64,000 nucleotides of DNA from Haloprofundus salinisoli (GTDB lineage Archaea > Halobacteriota > Halobacteria > Halobacteriales > Haloferacaceae). Positions 56,475 through 63,943 of the stretch are shown piece after piece; the stretch's first letter is position 1, and each line of letters opens with the position of its first letter. A program made the position numbers and the translations under genes. Below the pieces are notes generated by a model. That model did not search any database and was not told the origin of the DNA. It worked only from the letters and a program-made list of their open reading frames with translations. The DNA is taken from contig NZ_CP083663.1 of the NCBI RefSeq assembly GCF_020097815.1, positions 1,116,001 to 1,180,000 on the forward strand. The letters run 5' to 3'.

Positions 56475-56597
56475 GGGCCTCACGGTCGTCTACGCATCTA
56501 CGACTGTTAACAGTTCTCAGAGGCGTCCGCATCAACCGGCGATCACTTCCGCCCCAAGGCGATACTTCTTACAGGGGGAGGGTCTAAGCCTGTGTCA

Positions 56598-58703
56598 ATG
56601 GCGCAGGCATCGAATCAGGAGTTGACCGAGCGGTTCATCCAGTTCTACCGCAACTACTATCGGGACCGCATCGGCCAACTCGCCCAGAACTACCCCAACG
56701 AGCAGCGCTCGCTCCTCATCGACTACGACGACCTCTATCGGTTCGACCCGGATCTCGCCGACGACTACCTCTCGCACCCCGAGCAGATGCAGGAGTACGC
56801 CGAGGAAGCCCTCCGCCTCTACGATCTCCCCGCAGACGTCAGCCTCGGCCAGGCGCACGTCCGTCTCGACAACCTCCCCGAGAGCATCGCGATTCGCGGT
56901 ATCCGCGTCCACGACGACCACGTCGGGAAGATGGTGAGCATCCAGGGCATCGTTCGCAAAGCGACCGACGTTCGGCCGAAAGTAACGCAGGCGGCGTTCG
57001 AGTGCCAACGCTGCGGGACGATGGCGTACATCCCGCAGTCCGACGGCAGTTTTCAGGAACCGCACGAGTGTCAGGGCTGTGAGCGACAGGGACCGTTCAT
57101 GGTCAGTTTCGACCAGTCGGAGTTCATCGACTCACAGAAGCTTCGAATCCAGGAGAGTCCCGAGGGTCTCCGCGGCGGCGAGACGCCCCAGAGCATCGAC
57201 ATCAACGTCGAAGACGACATCACGGGGAAGGTGACCGCCGGCGACCACGTCACCATGGTCGGAGTGCTCCACATCGAGCAGATGAAAAACGGCCAGGAGA
57301 AGTCGCCCATCTTCGACCTCTACATGGACGGGGTTTCGGTGACCATCGAGGACGAGGAGTTCGAGGACATGGACATCACCGACGAGGACAAACAGGAGAT
57401 CATCGAACTCTCCTCGCACCCGAACATCTACGACGAGATGGTCGCCTCCGTCGCGCCCGCCATCTACGGCTACGAGAAGGAGAAACTCGCCATGATCCTC
57501 CAACTGTTTTCGGGCGTCACCAAACATCTGCCCGACGGCTCTCGCATCCGCGGCGACCTCCACATGCTTCTCATCGGCGACCCCGGTACCGGGAAGTCGC
57601 AGATGCTCTCCTACATCCAGAACATCGCGCCTCGCTCCGTCTACACCTCGGGCAAAGGGTCGTCCTCGGCGGGTCTCACCGCCGCCGCCGTCCGTGACGA
57701 CTTCGGCGACGGCCAGCAGTGGTCGCTCGAAGCCGGCGCGCTCGTGCTCGCGGACAAAGGCATCGCGGCGGTCGACGAGTTGGACAAGATGCGCCCCGAG
57801 GACCGCTCGGCGATGCACGAAGCGCTCGAACAGCAGAAGATTTCGGTGTCGAAGGCGGGCATCAACGCGACGCTCAAATCCAGATGTTCGCTGCTCGGCG
57901 CGGCGAACCCGAAGTACGGTCGCTTCGACCAGTACGAATCCATCGGCGAGCAGATCAACCTCGAACCGGCGCTCATCTCGCGGTTCGACCTCATCTTCAC
58001 CGTCACCGACCAGCCCGACCCCGACCACGACAGCAAACTGGCCGAACACATCCTGCAGACGAACTACGCGGGTGAATTGAACACCCAGCGGACGAACCTC
58101 ACGACCTCGAACTTCACTCAGAAGGAAGTCGACGCGGTCACCGAGGAGGTCGCTCCGGCCATCGACGCGGACCTGCTGCGAAAGTACATCGCGTACGCGA
58201 AGCGCAACTGTTACCCGACGATGACCGACGTCGCGATGCAGACGATTCGGGACTTCTACGTCGACCTGCGCGCGAAAGGCGCCGACGAGGACGCCCCCGT
58301 CCCGGTCACCGCCCGGAAACTGGAGGCGCTCGTGCGCCTCGCGGAGGCGAGTGCGCGCATCCGACTCTCCGACACAGTCGACGAAGAGGACGCAGAACGC
58401 GCCGTCGAACTCGCTCGTTCGACGCTACAGGACATCGGTGTCGACCCCGAGACGGGGCAGTTCGACGCCGACGTCGTCGAGACGGGGCAGTCGAAGACCC
58501 AGCGCGACCGGAAGATGAACCTCCGGAAACTCATCGGCGACATCGAAAGCGAGTACGACGGCGGCGCGCCGGTGGAGGTCATCCTCGAAGAGGCGGAAGA
58601 GAAACTCGGCATCAGCGAACAGAAGGCCGAACAGGAGATAGAGGGGCTCAAACGGAAGGGCGAACTGTACGAACCGACGCAGGGCCACCTCCGGACGACG
58701 TGA
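56598..58703 (+). CDS. mcm: MCM replicative helicase
   Basis: The 701-residue helicase unwinds DNA ahead of the fork. The N-terminal domain holds a zinc ribbon (CQRCGTMAYIPQSDGSFQE, CQGCERQG). Walker A is GDPGTGKSQM, Walker B ADKGIAAVDELDKM, sensor/arginine-finger region SRFDLIFTVTDQPDPDHDSK, and a C-terminal winged-helix region (residues about 620-700). No intein interrupts the Walker or sensor motifs, although haloarchaeal mcm often carries one. ATG 56598 is preferred over a GTG two codons earlier. It is followed by a cluster of haloarchaea-only genes. Confidence 0.97.
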   Translation: MAQASNQELTERFIQFYRNYYRDRIGQLAQNYPNEQRSLLIDYDDLYRFDPDLADDYLSHPEQMQEYAEEALRLYDLPADVSLGQAHVRLDNLPESIAIRGIRVHDDHVGKMVSIQGIVRKATDVRPKVTQAAFECQRCGTMAYIPQSDGSFQEPHECQGCERQGPFMVSFDQSEFIDSQKLRIQESPEGLRGGETPQSIDINVEDDITGKVTAGDHVTMVGVLHIEQMKNGQEKSPIFDLYMDGVSVTIEDEEFEDMDITDEDKQEIIELSSHPNIYDEMVASVAPAIYGYEKEKLAMILQLFSGVTKHLPDGSRIRGDLHMLLIGDPGTGKSQMLSYIQNIAPRSVYTSGKGSSSAGLTAAAVRDDFGDGQQWSLEAGALVLADKGIAAVDELDKMRPEDRSAMHEALEQQKISVSKAGINATLKSRCSLLGAANPKYGRFDQYESIGEQINLEPALISRFDLIFTVTDQPDPDHDSKLAEHILQTNYAGELNTQRTNLTTSNFTQKEVDAVTEEVAPAIDADLLRKYIAYAKRNCYPTMTDVAMQTIRDFYVDLRAKGADEDAPVPVTARKLEALVRLAEASARIRLSDTVDEEDAERAVELARSTLQDIGVDPETGQFDADVVETGQSKTQRDRKMNLRKLIGDIESEYDGGAPVEVILEEAEEKLGISEQKAEQEIEGLKRKGELYEPTQGHLRTT

Positions 58704-58705
58704 GC

Positions 58706-58987
58706 ATGGACCGAATCTCCGCACTCCGAAACGTCGAGGAGGCGCTTCGAGCGTTCGAAGAGGGCGAAGTCGATCTGGCGAGCGCCGAACGCCGTGTCGT
58801 CACCGTCCTACGAACGTACGCGACCGAGTTCGAGGTCGACGGTCTCTCGGCGTACCGAGCGCGCGGCGACGACCGGGCGGACGGTCTCGTCGTCGTTGCC
58901 GACTCCGAACGCGAAGCCGAAGAACGGATTCGGACACTGCTCGACGGCGGGAGCGGTCTCACGTTCGAGGTCGTCGAGACGGACTGA
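58706..58987 (+). CDS. small acidic protein (DUF7854-like)
   Basis: The 93-residue protein (MDRISALRNVEEALRAFEEG) begins two bases after the mcm stop codon; a GTG four codons-equivalent upstream would overlap it. It has a helical N-terminus and a beta-like C-terminus (LTFEVVETD) and a central VLRTYATEFEVDGLSAYRAR. Its conserved place after mcm suggests co-expression. I recall the family as DUF7854; no function is known. Confidence 0.72.
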   Translation: MDRISALRNVEEALRAFEEGEVDLASAERRVVTVLRTYATEFEVDGLSAYRARGDDRADGLVVVADSEREAEERIRTLLDGGSGLTFEVVETD

Positions 58988-59093
58988 CCGCCGAGATGCG
59001 GCGAACGGGGAGAGAGCCGTGAGACCGATGTGCAAACACTTTAGTCTGTTGCGGCGATACATCAAAAAGACAACGTGAGGAAGGTACCCAGTC

Positions 59094-59714
59094 GTGACAG
59101 GTAAGGAGACGCCCATGGAGACCGTGTTCGACGAAGCGTCGAGCATCCTCCTTTTATCCCCGTCGCTCGGTGAAGGCGAGAGCGACACGTGTATCGAGCT
59201 GTTACACCCCGACGACGTCGACAAGAACGCGCTGTGGGTGTCGTACACGAAGTCGCCGGACGCGCAACTGCGCCGGTGGCGAACCCACAGCGAGCACCCG
59301 CCGGCGAGCGTCGGCGTCGTCAGCGTTGGCGACTCGATGCGCTCTGTCAGCGCACCGGCCCCGGCGGGAGCGGGCGACCAGGAACTCAACGCGGGCGTCG
59401 AAACCGTCGCCAACCCGAACGACCTCACGGGACTCGGCATCAGCATCACCGAGCATCTGAGTCGCTGGGAGGACAACGGCAACCGGACCGTCGTCTGCGT
59501 CGACTCGTTGACGGCGATGCTGCAGTACGTCGAGCTCCAGACGGCCTACGAGTTCCTCCACGTCCTCACCGGTCGACTGTATGCCACCGGCGCCGTCGCG
59601 CACTTCCACATGGACCCCGGCGCACACGACGAACAGACCGTCGAGAGCATCGTCTCGCTCTGCGACGCCGTCGTCGAGCTCCGCGACGGCGGCCGACACG
59701 TCAGGTGTCGCTGA
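59094..59714 (+). CDS. RecA/KaiC-like protein with degenerate P-loop (DUF7504-like)
   Basis: The 206-residue protein starts with GTG (MTGKETPMETVFDEASSILL); an ATG at 59115 is an alternative. The fold has the RecA pattern, but the Walker A position (residues 22-30) reads SPSLGEGES with no Gly-Lys-Thr/Ser. Walker B is kept as VVCVDSLTAM near residue 135. ATP hydrolysis is therefore unlikely, although nucleotide or protein binding may remain. This matches a haloarchaeal family recalled as DUF7504 (HTR-like). It belongs to the run of uncharacterised genes behind mcm. Confidence 0.78.
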   Translation: MTGKETPMETVFDEASSILLLSPSLGEGESDTCIELLHPDDVDKNALWVSYTKSPDAQLRRWRTHSEHPPASVGVVSVGDSMRSVSAPAPAGAGDQELNAGVETVANPNDLTGLGISITEHLSRWEDNGNRTVVCVDSLTAMLQYVELQTAYEFLHVLTGRLYATGAVAHFHMDPGAHDEQTVESIVSLCDAVVELRDGGRHVRCR

Positions 59715-59723
59715 CTCCGAAGG

Positions 59724-59734
59724 TTTTAATTTTA
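59724..59734 (+). promoter_or_regulatory. TATA-like box upstream of the gene at 59755
   Basis: TTTTAATTTTA is centred about 28 bases before GTG 59755. It supports this GTG as a leaderless start and indicates a second promoter inside the mcm-linked cluster. Confidence 0.5.
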
Positions 59735-59754
59735 CGACGGATACAGCGGTATCC

Positions 59755-60093
59755 GTGCTGCTGGTCGTCACGTACTCACAGGCCGCGCGAGCGACACTCC
59801 GGAACGTCTGCCAAAGTCACGAGACGGTCGTCGTCAGGCGGTTCGGCCGCGCGGCGCTGTTCGCGGCGACCGAACTGGGCGCGTTTCTCGCACTCCGACT
59901 GCGCGCGAAACACGGCGGCGACGTGCAACTGTCACAGACCGAACCGTTCAACGAGTTCACCGAGGTGGACGAAGAGATACGCGAGGCCGCGATGGCCTAC
60001 GAGGCCCGCGATTCGCCGAGCACGCCGTACGCGAAGTTCGCGACGGGAACCGACTATCCGAGCCCCGAGCGGATGCGCGACCGAGAGCTGTGA
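59755..60093 (+). CDS. conserved haloarchaeal protein (DUF7855-like)
   Basis: The 112-residue protein starts with GTG (MLLVVTYSQAARATLRNVCQ). It contains RRFGRAALFAATELGAFLAL, LSQTEPFNEFTEVDEEIREA and FATGTDYPSPERMR. No catalytic motif is recognised; the sequence is helical in the middle. The next gene starts four bases before its stop codon, so the two are coupled. The GTG is placed by an upstream TATA-like box. The family is recalled as DUF7855. Confidence 0.72.
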   Translation: MLLVVTYSQAARATLRNVCQSHETVVVRRFGRAALFAATELGAFLALRLRAKHGGDVQLSQTEPFNEFTEVDEEIREAAMAYEARDSPSTPYAKFATGTDYPSPERMRDREL

Positions 60094-60932
60094 GCGTCGT
60101 GACGGTTCGCGTGGGGACGAGGGCGTACAGCGGCCGGGGAGTCGACCTCCGGGCGGAGAGCGTCGCGCCGGCGGCCGTGTACGAAGCCGCCGCGATGGGG
60201 GACGTCAACGATCGCGTCGTCGTAGAGAGCCCGAAACCGAGCGAGGGCTACGAGACGCTGTGGTGTATCCGCGGGGAACCCACGACCTCCGTCGTGCGCT
60301 CGCTGGAGGCGGCGGCGCGGTCGCGCGGGCAGGCCACACCCGAAGACGACGAACGGGCGAGCGTCGAAGCGGCGCTCGCGGAACTCGACGTGCCGACGGT
60401 CGAGACGACCGCGGCCCGTCGCCGCGTCGCCCGCGTCGGTGCGGACGAAGAGCGCCTCCGAGAGCGCGTCGCCGAACTTCGAGGTAGGCTCCAAGCCCGC
60501 CGAGAGGCGGGCGCGAGCGTCGACAGCGTCCGGCAGACGCTCTCGGAGACGGCCGGGCGACTCGCCGAAGTCGAAACGGAACGAATCGCTGCCGAACAGG
60601 CGCTCGAACGCGCCGAACGCGAGGCGGCCGCCGCGCGAGACGCTCGCGAACGACGACTCCGACTCGAGGACCGTGCGGCCAACCTCGCACGCGCGGCCCG
60701 CCGCCGTCTCGCCGAGAGCGTGTACAACGAGTTCGCGTCGGCGCTGCGGTCGCTACCCGGCGAAGCCGAACCGGGTTCGACGCCGGGGGAGTTCCGCGGC
60801 GACCCCGTGAGCGCCCGACTCGCCGCGGTTCGCGTCGCCGACCTCGACGCGCCCGTCGTGCTCTGCGTCGACCGGTTCGACGACGCCGACGCGGCCGCGG
60901 ACGCCCTCGACGCACCCGTCGTCCGGATTTAA
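60090..60932 (+). CDS. coiled-coil protein (DUF7856-like)
   Basis: The 280-residue protein starts with GTG (MSVVTVRVGTRAYSGRGVDL). A beta-rich N-terminal part (residues 1-90) precedes a long coiled coil (residues about 105-215, with RVAELRGRLQARREAGASVD and RIAAEQALERAEREAAAARD). A C-terminal domain ends in DAPVVLCVDRFDDADAAADA. The layout recalls small SMC/Rad50-like linkers, but there is no P-loop. It is coupled to the preceding gene by GTGA and lies just upstream of a MinD/ParA ATPase gene. Confidence 0.72.
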   Translation: MSVVTVRVGTRAYSGRGVDLRAESVAPAAVYEAAAMGDVNDRVVVESPKPSEGYETLWCIRGEPTTSVVRSLEAAARSRGQATPEDDERASVEAALAELDVPTVETTAARRRVARVGADEERLRERVAELRGRLQARREAGASVDSVRQTLSETAGRLAEVETERIAAEQALERAEREAAAARDARERRLRLEDRAANLARAARRRLAESVYNEFASALRSLPGEAEPGSTPGEFRGDPVSARLAAVRVADLDAPVVLCVDRFDDADAAADALDAPVVRI

Positions 60933-60957
60933 ATACGGTCACGCGGCAGACCGGCGT

Positions 60958-61695
60958 ATGGAACTCACCTGGAGCGTCGACCACGCCGACGGTATCTCGT
61001 TCGTGACCGTCCGAGTGACAAACGACAGGGGTGCCGACCGACGTGTCCGCGTCGAGAACCGACTCGCCGGGCCGGTGTTGCCGCCGCGGCGTGCGGGCGT
61101 TCCGGAGGCCGGATGGGACGATACCGGGTACGAGACGGTCGTCCCCGCCAAAGAGTCCGCTTCGGTGGGCTACGCCTGTCCGGCCGCCGCCGACGAACCG
61201 CCGGTCGAACTCGTCTCTGCGGGTCGTGCAGACGGACCGGAGCGTCGAGACGCGACGCCGACGGCCGAGGACGCCCTGAGACGGTGTGGCGTCGCACGCC
61301 CGCCGCGGGAAGCCCTCGCGTATCCCGAGTCGGGCGACGAAGGCGGCAGCGGGGACAGAACCGACAGCCGCGAAAGCGGGAGTCCCGAACGGGACGACGA
61401 CCGCGTCCGAACGGAACGTCGGGCGGAACCGGCCGAGGTTCCCCAGTCGGTCGACGCGTGGTTCCACGAGGTTCGAGGCCGCGTCGACCAGGCGGAGACG
61501 CTCACCGACGCGTCCGTCGCGGAGGCGACGACGGCGCTCGAAGCGCTCGGCGGCCTCGGTGCAGCGGAGCGACTACCCGCGCGACTCGAACGCGACGCCG
61601 CGGCGCTCCACGCGGTTGCGGCGAGCGCCGAACGACTCGCCGACCGGGTCGAGTCGACGGACGTTCCGGTCGACGCCCTCCGGAGGCTCGCGTGA
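60958..61695 (+). CDS. conserved haloarchaeal protein (DUF7857-like)
   Basis: The 245-residue protein begins MELTWSVDHADGISFVTVRV. An immunoglobulin-like beta domain (residues 1-75, with VRVTNDRGADRRVRVENRLA) is followed by a Pro/Arg/Ser-rich disordered linker and a C-terminal helical part (SVDAWFHEVRGRVDQAETLT, ATTALEALGGLGAAERLPAR). No enzyme motif is seen. Its stop codon overlaps the GTG of the MinD-like gene by three bases, so they are translated together. The family is recalled as DUF7857. Confidence 0.72.
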   Translation: MELTWSVDHADGISFVTVRVTNDRGADRRVRVENRLAGPVLPPRRAGVPEAGWDDTGYETVVPAKESASVGYACPAAADEPPVELVSAGRADGPERRDATPTAEDALRRCGVARPPREALAYPESGDEGGSGDRTDSRESGSPERDDDRVRTERRAEPAEVPQSVDAWFHEVRGRVDQAETLTDASVAEATTALEALGGLGAAERLPARLERDAAALHAVAASAERLADRVESTDVPVDALRRLA

Positions 61696-62372
61696 TTCTC
61701 GCCGTCGTCGGCGGGAAAGGCGGCGTCGGCAAGTCGACAGTCGCGTACAACCTGGCCGCGGCCCTCGACGAAGGTGGCGAGCGGAGACGGAGTATCGTCG
61801 TCGACGCGGACCTCGGGATGGCCGACCTCCCGTCGAAGCGGGGCCCCGACCTCCACGACGTGCTGGCGGGACGCGCCGCGCCGCTCGAAGCGGTTCGACA
61901 CGGACCGGTCGACGCACTCGCGTGCGGGCGGTCGCTGGCCGGCGCGCGGGCGGCGGACCTCACGTCGTTGGCGGCGGCGCTGGACCCTATCGAGCGGGAG
62001 TACGAAACGGTCGTCGTCGACTGCCCGGCGGGGATGCGCGCCGATGTCGGCGTTCCGCTGGCGCTGGCGGACGCGTGCGTCGTTGTCGCCTCGCCGAAAC
62101 CGTTCGCGCTCGCCGACGCGGTTCGGAGTCGGGAACTCGCCCGCGAGCTCGATTCGGGTCTCGTCGGCGTCGTGTTGAACCGCGTCGTCGACGACGCCCC
62201 CGAACGCACCGTCAGCCGAGCGCTGGGCGCGCCGACCGAAACCGTCCGCGCGGACCCGCGAGTCGGCGAGTCCGTCGAAGACGAGCGTCCCGTCGTTACC
62301 GCCGCTCCCGGGAGCGAGGCGGCAGCAGCGTTCCGGCAGGTCGCGGCGGCGGTTCGCGTCTGTGAGCGGTGA
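61692..62372 (+). CDS. MinD/ParA-like ATPase
   Basis: The 226-residue protein starts with GTG. The deviant Walker A KGGVGKST sits at residues 9-16 (VVGGKGGVGKSTVAYNLAAA). Switch I and the sensor region appear as VVDADLGMADLPS, and Walker B as VVVDCPAGM. The end carries no clear membrane-targeting helix. MinD/ParA proteins position cell-division, chromosome or flagellar structures; which of these applies is unknown. Its GTG overlaps the DUF7857-like gene, and it closes the block of genes behind mcm. TFB follows on the opposite strand. Confidence 0.88.
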   Translation: MILAVVGGKGGVGKSTVAYNLAAALDEGGERRRSIVVDADLGMADLPSKRGPDLHDVLAGRAAPLEAVRHGPVDALACGRSLAGARAADLTSLAAALDPIEREYETVVVDCPAGMRADVGVPLALADACVVVASPKPFALADAVRSRELARELDSGLVGVVLNRVVDDAPERTVSRALGAPTETVRADPRVGESVEDERPVVTAAPGSEAAAAFRQVAAAVRVCER

Positions 62373-62394: not shown

Positions 62395-63258
62395 TCAGTC
62401 GCGCAGGTCGTAGTAGGTGCTCCGGAGCGTGACGGGCGTGACACCCGCGGTGTCGGCCGCCTCCTGTTGGGTCACCGCCGCGTCGAGTTCGCGGGCGGCC
62501 GCGTAGAGACAGGCGGCGGCGACGCCGCTCGGATTTCGACCCGACGCGAGGCCGCTGTCGTGGCTCTCGGCGGCGAGTTCGCGGGCGCGGCGTTCGACCG
62601 AGGAGTCCAAATCGAGCTCGCTCGCAAAGCGCGGGACGTACTCGGCCGGTGAAACGGGCCCGACCGGAAGCCCCAGGTCGCGGTTGAGCGCGTCGTACGC
62701 CGCGCCGTGTTCGTTCTCCGTCGCGCGGGCGACGTCGAGCACCTCGTCGACGGTCCGCGAGACGCCGGCGACGCGGCAGGCGGCGTAGACGCACGCCGAG
62801 GAGAACCCCTCCAGCGAGCGTCCGCGGAGTAGGTTCTCGTTCTGCGCGGAGCGAAGCAGCGAACAGGCGTGGTCGCGCACGCGGTCCGGCAGCGACAGCG
62901 CGCCGGTCAGTCGGCGGATTTCGGTGAAGGCGTACACCTGGTTTCGCTCGCGCTTCGAGGAGATGCGCGCGCGGTTGTGCTGGCGGCGCATCCGCGCCAA
63001 CCGGCGGCGCTTGCGTCCTTTGACACGGGTCGACCGACCGATCTCCGTCGAGAGACCGCGGTCGTGCCGCGAGCGCGTCAGCGGTGCGCCGGTCCGTTCG
63101 GGGTTCGTCTCGTCGTCGGCGAACGAGCGCCACTCGGGGCCGTGGTCGATGTGGTCGGCGGCGACGACGAGGCCACAGTTCGCACACACCGTCTCGCTGC
63201 TATCTTTCCGGAGTCGGCCGTCGCATTCGGGGCAACCGGTCGCCTGTGTCTTGCTCAT
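62395..63258 (-). CDS. tfb: transcription initiation factor TFB
   Basis: The 287-residue TFIIB homologue recruits RNA polymerase to TBP-bound promoters. The N-terminal zinc ribbon is CPECDGRLRKDSSETVCANC near residues 14-33. A linker leads to two cyclin-like repeats (RAVVSSKRERNQVYAFTEI-like region, RGRSLEGFSSACVYAACRVA; GRNPSGVAAACLYAARELD). Haloarchaea carry several TFB paralogues, and this is one of them. It is slightly short compared with the usual 300-320, mainly at the C-terminus. A TATA-like TTTAAATA box lies about 28 bases before ATG 63258. Confidence 0.95.
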   Translation of the reverse strand: MSKTQATGCPECDGRLRKDSSETVCANCGLVVAADHIDHGPEWRSFADDETNPERTGAPLTRSRHDRGLSTEIGRSTRVKGRKRRRLARMRRQHNRARISSKRERNQVYAFTEIRRLTGALSLPDRVRDHACSLLRSAQNENLLRGRSLEGFSSACVYAACRVAGVSRTVDEVLDVARATENEHGAAYDALNRDLGLPVGPVSPAEYVPRFASELDLDSSVERRARELAAESHDSGLASGRNPSGVAAACLYAAARELDAAVTQQEAADTAGVTPVTLRSTYYDLRD

Positions 63259-63427: not shown

Positions 63428-63943
63428 ATGGGACTGGCCGACATCGCCGCGGGCATCGAGGTGACCGCCGAACAGGAGACGCGCGGCGTTCCCACCGTCG
63501 ACGACACCGGCGTCGCACTCCGAGAGCGGTTCGACGCGCACGCGGAGGCGCTCCCGTGCGAGGCCGACGCGGCCGCGACCGTGTTCGACGCGTACGCGGG
63601 CGGCGCGAGCGTCGGCGAGAGCGCACGCGAGGCGGGCGTCGCCCCGATGACCGCCGCGAAGGCGCTGCACCGCTGCGGCGTGACGGGCGTGACGCCGCTG
63701 GGTCCGACGGCGCGCGAGATTCTTCGGGACTGGCTCGACGGCGAACTCCCCCGAACCGAAGCGCGGACGCTCACCGGCGTCTCGAAGACGGAGTTCGCGC
63801 TCGCGGCGTACGTCGAGACGCACGAGCCCATCGAGGAACTGACCGACGCGACAGCGGGCGAGCTAACGCCCGGCACGAACGCGACGGTGGCGAAACGGGA
63901 TGCGCTGGCGGAGACGATGAGCGACCCCAGCGAGTTTTTCTGA
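63428..63943 (+). CDS. helix-turn-helix-like conserved protein (DUF7858-like)
   Basis: The 171-residue protein begins MGLADIAAGIEVTAEQETRG. It has two HTH-like helical stretches: residues about 55-80 (DAYAGGASVGESAREAGVAP, then MTAAKALHRCGV) and residues 90-125 (REILRDWLDGELPRTEARTL, TGVSKTEFALAAYVETHEPI). This suggests nucleic-acid binding, but it could also be a structural helical protein. It is transcribed divergently from tfb. A TATA-like AACTTTTAG lies about 32 bases upstream. The family is recalled as DUF7858. Confidence 0.72.
   Translation: MGLADIAAGIEVTAEQETRGVPTVDDTGVALRERFDAHAEALPCEADAAATVFDAYAGGASVGESAREAGVAPMTAAKALHRCGVTGVTPLGPTAREILRDWLDGELPRTEARTLTGVSKTEFALAAYVETHEPIEELTDATAGELTPGTNATVAKRDALAETMSDPSEFF

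Follow-up and report, generated by a model that had tools for sequence, protein, structure and literature searches.

This study concerns six co-oriented genes that follow mcm in a window of 64,000 nucleotides from the haloarchaeon Haloprofundus salinisoli (contig NZ_CP083663.1, positions 1,116,001 to 1,180,000; coordinates below are those of the window unless a contig or locus is named). The mcm gene (56592-58703, + strand) is universal and is treated here as a positional neighbour. The last of the six genes ends at 62372 and is followed by a convergent TFB gene and a gene for a DUF7858 protein. An initial annotation of this DNA had regarded the block as a haloarchaea-specific machine for placing or segregating replication or chromosome structures. 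Our analysis indicates that it most likely serves a pilus rather than replication or segregation, because two of its products, the ATPase MinD1 and the adjacent DUF7857 protein, are gained and lost together with a pilus system.

All six open reading frames lie on the + strand where they had been placed, and the 4-base overlaps of GTGA type at 60090-60093 and 61692-61695 were confirmed. Their products match Pfam families above the cut-offs: DUF7854, DUF7504, DUF7855, DUF7856, DUF7857 and MinD/ParA ATPase. The DUF7854 gene (58706-58987), which starts 2 bases past the mcm stop, encodes a small acidic protein of 93 amino acids (PF25252, E-value 1.5e-37). The second gene (59115-59714) encodes a RecA/KaiC-like DUF7504 protein (PF24336, E-value 2.5e-40) that also matches DUF7090. 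As had been proposed from the single sequence, its Walker A motif is lost; across 38 aligned sequences of the syntenic family, Walker B is retained, and the residues common at the Walker A position do not include the GK[ST] of the functional RecA/KaiC motif GxxxxGK[ST]. This gene is an optional member, missing from about half of the 80 named haloarchaeal loci that were fetched with DUF7855. The DUF7855 protein itself (59755-60093, GTG start, 112 amino acids, PF25253) is strongly conserved, its alignment showing a mean column identity of 79%.

The coiled coil ascribed to the DUF7856 protein (60090-60932, PF25254) was recovered in the AlphaFold2 model as a confident hairpin attached to a globular head (mean predicted local distance difference test, pLDDT, 96.9), its helices spanning residues 106-140 and 145-210. 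DUF7856 has no significant match among solved structures, with no Foldseek result below an E-value of 1e-3. A role like that of SMC, Rad50 or RecN was considered and rejected: there is no ATPase family match and only a weak SMC-related coiled-coil match, and the resemblance to SMC/Rad50/RecN heads with coiled coils is non-significant (best E-value 6e-3, template modelling scores 0.24-0.41). The DUF7857 protein (60958-61695, PF25256) had been described as a beta protein with a disordered part. Its AlphaFold2 model (mean pLDDT 87.5) contains an immunoglobulin (Ig)-like beta sandwich at residues 1-90 and a disordered linker, in line with that description, and also a helical C-terminal domain at residues 163-244 that had been overlooked. 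Foldseek returned Ig-like matches with a probability of 1.0, at an E-value of only about 1e-3. No literature was found on HVO_0221-0224 or on DUF7854-7857.

MinD1 (61692-62372) carries the signature of MinD/ParA ATPases, namely the deviant Walker A KGGxGK[ST], the Walker A' aspartate and Walker B, with GGKGGVGKS, VDADLG and DCPAG in the window protein, in agreement with its first description as a deviant Walker A ATPase. Among 113 homologues, GKGGVGK[ST] is present in 111 and a D-x-P-A-G-type motif in 108. Besides Pfam and NCBIfam matches of MinD type, it matches the archaeal MinD structure 1g3q (E-value 2e-20), and FleN structures are also among the matches. With 131.3 bits against a curated cut-off of 201.75 for NCBIfam minD_arch (TIGR01969), MinD1 is to be classed as a relative and not as a member by that cut-off. 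The protein has 226 amino acids and its Walker A begins at residue 8, leaving no N-terminal receiver-like domain ahead of the ATPase. By position it is the orthologue of HVO_0225 of Haloferax volcanii, and the available text of published work gives no function for it.

The survey sample comprised 145 genomes of the class Halobacteria. In the 80 fetched loci, mcm lies nearby in 75, far beyond chance, and the order mcm-7854-(7504)-7855-7856-7857-MinD1 is kept wherever the genes are present. MCM is found in 145/145 genomes and the block in about two thirds of them. The linkage to mcm therefore looks positional, since MCM is present in every genome with or without the block, and mcm evidently does not need its neighbours; a functional link to replication was rejected on these counts. 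DUF7854 was detected in 89 genomes, DUF7855 in 92 and DUF7856 in 88, every one of the last also having DUF7855. Eighty genomes have all of DUF7854, DUF7855, DUF7856, DUF7857 and MinD1, 32 have none of them, and 19 have only DUF7857 and MinD1. The last two proteins are nearly inseparable in inheritance (both in 100 genomes, neither in 40, discordant in 5), which makes DUF7857 the constant partner of MinD1.

Two inheritance modules are thus present, DUF7854/7855/7856 and DUF7857/MinD1, because the pair remains together when moved apart from the rest: it stays adjacent in G013 (135 kb from the other genes), G064 (170 kb), G135 (757 kb), G141, G096 and the pair-only genomes. The initial annotation was accurate as to coordinates, overlaps and protein types, and the consistent linkage to mcm that it anticipated was found across Halobacteria; the unity of the six genes and their loss as one unit were not, given the two modules and the optional DUF7504. 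In G013 and G141 the relocated pair has a pilin or prepilin peptidase nearby; this is probably a coincidence and was not used as evidence, because no pilin is seen at the corresponding related loci of G064 and G096.

The two modules fit two internal promoter-like sites, one before DUF7855 and one before DUF7857. The TATA-like box at 59724-59734 (+ strand), from which two transcripts had been suggested, lies about 27 bases ahead of the GTG start of DUF7855, as in a leaderless-type promoter, and its position is conserved: a stretch of 6 or more A/T bases occurs at -36 to -18 before DUF7855 in 74% of the 80 loci, compared with 6% for neighbouring windows. A second TATA-like site, which the initial annotation had missed, precedes DUF7857 in 43% of 63 loci compared with 0%, with an A/T peak at -30 to -26. 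In the window this box, ATTTAAATA (60927-60935, + strand), overlaps the DUF7856 stop and lies 23-31 bases ahead of the DUF7857 ATG. In the same comparison of loci, no such conserved site was found upstream of DUF7854, DUF7856 or MinD1.

The clue to a partner system came from the pair-only genomes, and DUF7311 was used as the marker of the pilus concerned. It is present in 106 of the 145 genomes and agrees closely with MinD1 (both in 100, neither in 38, 6 and 1 discordant; Fisher 2e-27) and with DUF7857 (both in 103, neither in 38, 3 and 1 discordant; Fisher 3e-30). In the 8 genera with variation, agreement holds for 38 of 41 genomes (within-genus permutation, p<=5e-6). With an MCM tree built from 94 genomes, all negatives included, the Pagel test favoured dependent over independent evolution with the pilus marker, with likelihood ratios (LR) of 85.7 for MinD1 and 90.4 for DUF7857 and 21-22 parsimony changes per trait; for DUF7856 the LR was 37.7. 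The controls remained low: 4.8 for a second MCM copy (p 0.31), 5.9 for the archaellum marker ArlH (p 0.2) and at most 14.5 for 12 simulated independent traits. The archaellum was accordingly rejected as a partner. DUF7125 had been considered as a pilus marker and was dropped, being nearly universal (140/145); as a negative control it showed no association (p 0.61). The correlated gain and loss of DUF7857 and MinD1 with one pilus system is therefore strongly supported. It is not a matter of simple linkage, because the pilus cluster (C1:673-683 kb, with DUF7311 at C1:673,853) and the block (C1:1,174,700-1,178,370) lie 500 kb apart in the window genome.

This cluster comprises a DUF7310 coiled coil, DUF7311, a PilB-type ATPase, a TadC-like protein, DUF7283 and DUF7286; next to the cluster lies a divergently oriented CetZ gene (L154, 8200-9280, - strand). 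The ATPase belongs to the T2SSE family, scores best against the TadA family and bears a cysteine-containing N-terminal extension; the TadC-like protein is a weak T2SSF match. A pilB2/C2 type IV pilus regulon beside cetZ2 has been reported (Brown and Duggin 2023, PMC9856176), and the cluster shows its features, namely a PilB-type ATPase, a TadC-like protein and an adjacent CetZ, the identity of CetZ2 being taken from that paper. A CetZ gene is likewise divergent beside the cluster in most genomes of the mcm-locus type. The cluster also matches a halobacterial clade-4 type IV pilus (T4P) in the available part of Makarova et al. 2016 (PMC4858521). Identity of its ATPase with PilB1 (HVO_0620) was rejected: primers from PMC6491452 mismatch the clusters of other Haloferax species, which, as these are different species, is only suggestive. 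The report on the pilB2/C2 regulon does not mention MinD, and it is the present analysis that newly pairs the mcm-locus block with that regulon.

A variant arrangement brings the two loci together. In the pair-only genomes, most DUF7857-MinD1 pairs are found within or next to a cluster of type IV pilus type. Clusters that hold or adjoin the DUF7857-MinD1 pair encode a ParA-DUF7125 protein, two membrane proteins, DUF7857, MinD1, a secreted CARDB protein, a DUF7382 pilin-like protein, a HerA-like ATPase, a coiled coil, DUF7311, a T2SSE ATPase and a TadC-like protein, the completeness varying within the fetched stretches. In the MinD1 tree, all pilus-linked copies fall into a single clade (18 rows, support 99/97), whose pairs lie in or beside clusters with ParA-DUF7125, the DUF7382 pilin-like protein, DUF7311, the T2SSE ATPase and the TadC-like protein; the loci of pair and pilus are thus joined in one clade. 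This clade joins the mcm-locus MinD1 copies of G136, G086 and G056 (100/99).

Copy number and phylogeny also speak for a link between pair and pilus. Two DUF7857-MinD1 pairs are found only in G057 and G140, the same two genomes being the only ones with two DUF7311 proteins above the cut-off. The PilB tree leaves out G116, G140a and G023, as no sequence of the pilus ATPase was recovered for them. Among the rows common to both, the MinD1 and PilB trees have the same deepest split, although both genes are unlinked in G136 and G056, and the two sets of G057 fall on opposite sides of this split in both trees. MinD1 and PilB distances show a partial correlation of 0.66 after removal of the MCM distance (p 2e-4).

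On this basis, the block is probably a cytoplasmic accessory set for a Tad-like pilus of PilB2/PilC2 type encoded beside cetZ, with the DUF7857-MinD1 core as a regulator or positioner resembling TadZ and FlhG. Its proteins may act on the pilus by positioning or by assembly control. MinD1 would alternate, on a cellular surface, between a dimer with bound ATP and a monomer, and DUF7857 could use its Ig-like domain to act as adaptor or effector of MinD1; the two would set where or when the PilB2/PilC2 motor assembles or acts. In the majority version, DUF7854, DUF7855 and the DUF7856 hairpin could couple MinD1 to the pilus; where the pair lies in or beside the cluster, DUF7854-7856 are absent and the ParA-DUF7125 fusion and membrane proteins occur instead. 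An optional adaptor role, without nucleotide hydrolysis, would fall to the RecA-like DUF7504, and mcm would be just a neighbour. A bolder proposal, which we put forward tentatively, is a new positioning system for archaeal surface machines, in which the MinD ATPase, DUF7857 as an Ig-like cytosolic adaptor, a coiled-coil platform of DUF7855 and DUF7856, the CetZ tubulin and the Tad-like pilus might form one cytoskeleton-guided secretion or adhesion machine.

Known systems offer parallels. Bacterial TadA-family systems use a MinD-type protein, TadZ, and TadZ/CpaE for Tad pili and FlhG/FleN for flagella are models for how the place and time of assembly or activity of a machine are set. As with TadZ/CpaE of the bacterial Tad or type IVc pili, a MinD/ParA-type ATPase here accompanies a TadA-like ATPase and a TadC-like membrane protein, and, within the pilus-linked clade alone, MinD1 can be encoded inside the pilus cluster or next to it. 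In contrast to TadZ/CpaE, MinD1 lacks the N-terminal receiver-like domain and has DUF7857 as a constant Ig-like partner, and its gene usually sits next to mcm, well away from the pilus genes. It shares its ATPase superfamily with FlhG/FleN and with the arCOG00589 FleN/MinD family, whose members have been proposed as general archaeal T4P regulators that are often encoded away from the pilus (Makarova et al. 2016, PMC4858521, available text); that text does not mention DUF7857 as a partner, nor that this paralogue is paired with a single pilus system. The H. volcanii paralogues MinD2 and MinD4, according to the accessible parts of the reports on them, control surface machines (archaellum and chemotaxis arrays) and CetZ1 and not division, whereas MinD1 has another locus and other partners, and archaellum genes do not track it.

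Several observations weigh against a pilus function. The linkage does not amount to many independent observations, because the pair entered the pilus cluster once on the MinD1 tree. The species tree is that of one gene fragment, and its 94 genomes are enriched for negatives. Among the discordant genomes, G099 has deleted DUF7857 and MinD1 yet keeps the pilus marker, four Natronomonas-like genomes of group g32 keep DUF7857 and the pilus without MinD1, and G044 has the pair without DUF7311. By eye, the MinD1 tail (...AAAFRQVAAAVRVCER) contains no obvious membrane-targeting sequence of bacterial type. Finally, the available text on minD1 mutants contains no adhesion or PilB2 assay and no experimental tie to pili.

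The alternative that fares best, although it appears unlikely, is that MinD1 and DUF7857 have no part in placing the PilB2/C2 pilus and instead control its assembly, its activity or its expression, for instance as a checkpoint during assembly or by way of the adjacent TFB. The same co-inheritance evidence fits this scheme; FleN/MinD proteins, KaiC ATPases and TFIIB homologues have been proposed as T4P regulators (PMC4858521, available text), and in G055 and G099 the deletion of the block extended to TFB. However, TFB is convergent and is missing beside several relocated pairs, and nothing demonstrates transcriptional regulation. More doubtful still is an indirect association, in which a lifestyle or habitat trait such as surface growth, cell shape or CetZ use would retain both the pilus and the block for separate processes: a cetZ gene does lie beside the pilus (PMC9856176), and other MinDs act, as far as the accessible text tells, on CetZ1, cell shape and archaella, but the archaellum shows no such association, and matched copy number and the location in or beside the pilus cluster favour a direct link. 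The chromosome machine of the initial annotation, in which MinD1 would segregate in the manner of ParA, the coiled coil would provide a scaffold and the RecA-like protein an adaptor, is highly improbable: the conserved site right behind mcm (75/80 loci), the known part of ParA/MinD ATPases in chromosome segregation and the weak SMC/Rad50/RecN-like resemblance of DUF7856 speak for it, whereas the block is absent in a third of genomes, all of which keep mcm, and was lost repeatedly, the pair is also found elsewhere than behind mcm, inside pilus clusters or next to them, DUF7856 neither matches an ATPase family nor has a significant fold match, and minD1-4 deletions in Haloferax, in the available text of the studies, cause no growth or division defect. 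What survives of that proposal is a haloarchaea-specific, co-inherited set with a MinD/ParA ATPase, a coiled coil and a RecA-like protein without Walker A.

With the pilus reading, four uncharacterised families and an orphan ATPase are brought into one testable hypothesis in the tractable H. volcanii, through the tie of MinD1 to a pilus and its DUF7857 partner. According to the accessible parts of PMC11588486/PMC11312570 and PMC11621097, deletion of all four H. volcanii minD genes, MinD1 included, leaves growth and division unaffected, and the swimming of the quadruple mutant resembles that of the minD2/4 double mutant. If MinD1 serves the pilus, the lack of a division or motility phenotype upon minD1 deletion would be explained, as such assays would miss this pilus.

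With regard to the neighbouring genes, the TFB (TFIIB-like) gene (62395-63258, - strand) is conserved in most loci, and the DUF7858 gene (63428-63943, + strand) is a conserved downstream neighbour whose 3' stub persists at two deletion scars. These belong to G055 and G099, two species of the same genus as the window. Their deletions are not identical; each ends inside DUF7858 and takes out DUF7857, MinD1 and TFB. In G055 (L116, 2743-3813), mcm and DUF7504 are kept and followed by the DUF7858 stub; in G099 (L122, 3767-4375), DUF7856 residues 1-152 run straight into the stub. Two Natronomonas loci (L070 and L075) retain DUF7857 without MinD1 and with TFB directly next to it, a natural MinD1-less version.

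The variant loci L134, L135, L136, L143, L145, L150 and L151 combine the ParA-DUF7125 fusion, the secreted CARDB protein, the DUF7382 pilin-like protein and the HerA-like ATPase, for none of which a description was found; no CetZ gene was seen at the pilus-linked variant loci. TFB genes occur near several pilus clusters as well (L143, L148, L151, L158 and L159), in keeping with what Makarova et al. reported for loci of T4P. G124 retains no more than stubs of the pilus cluster and of DUF7855: the decaying cluster has kept only the DUF7310 coiled coil and a remnant of DUF7311 (L159, 10244-10824, - strand), and the mcm block is decaying too.

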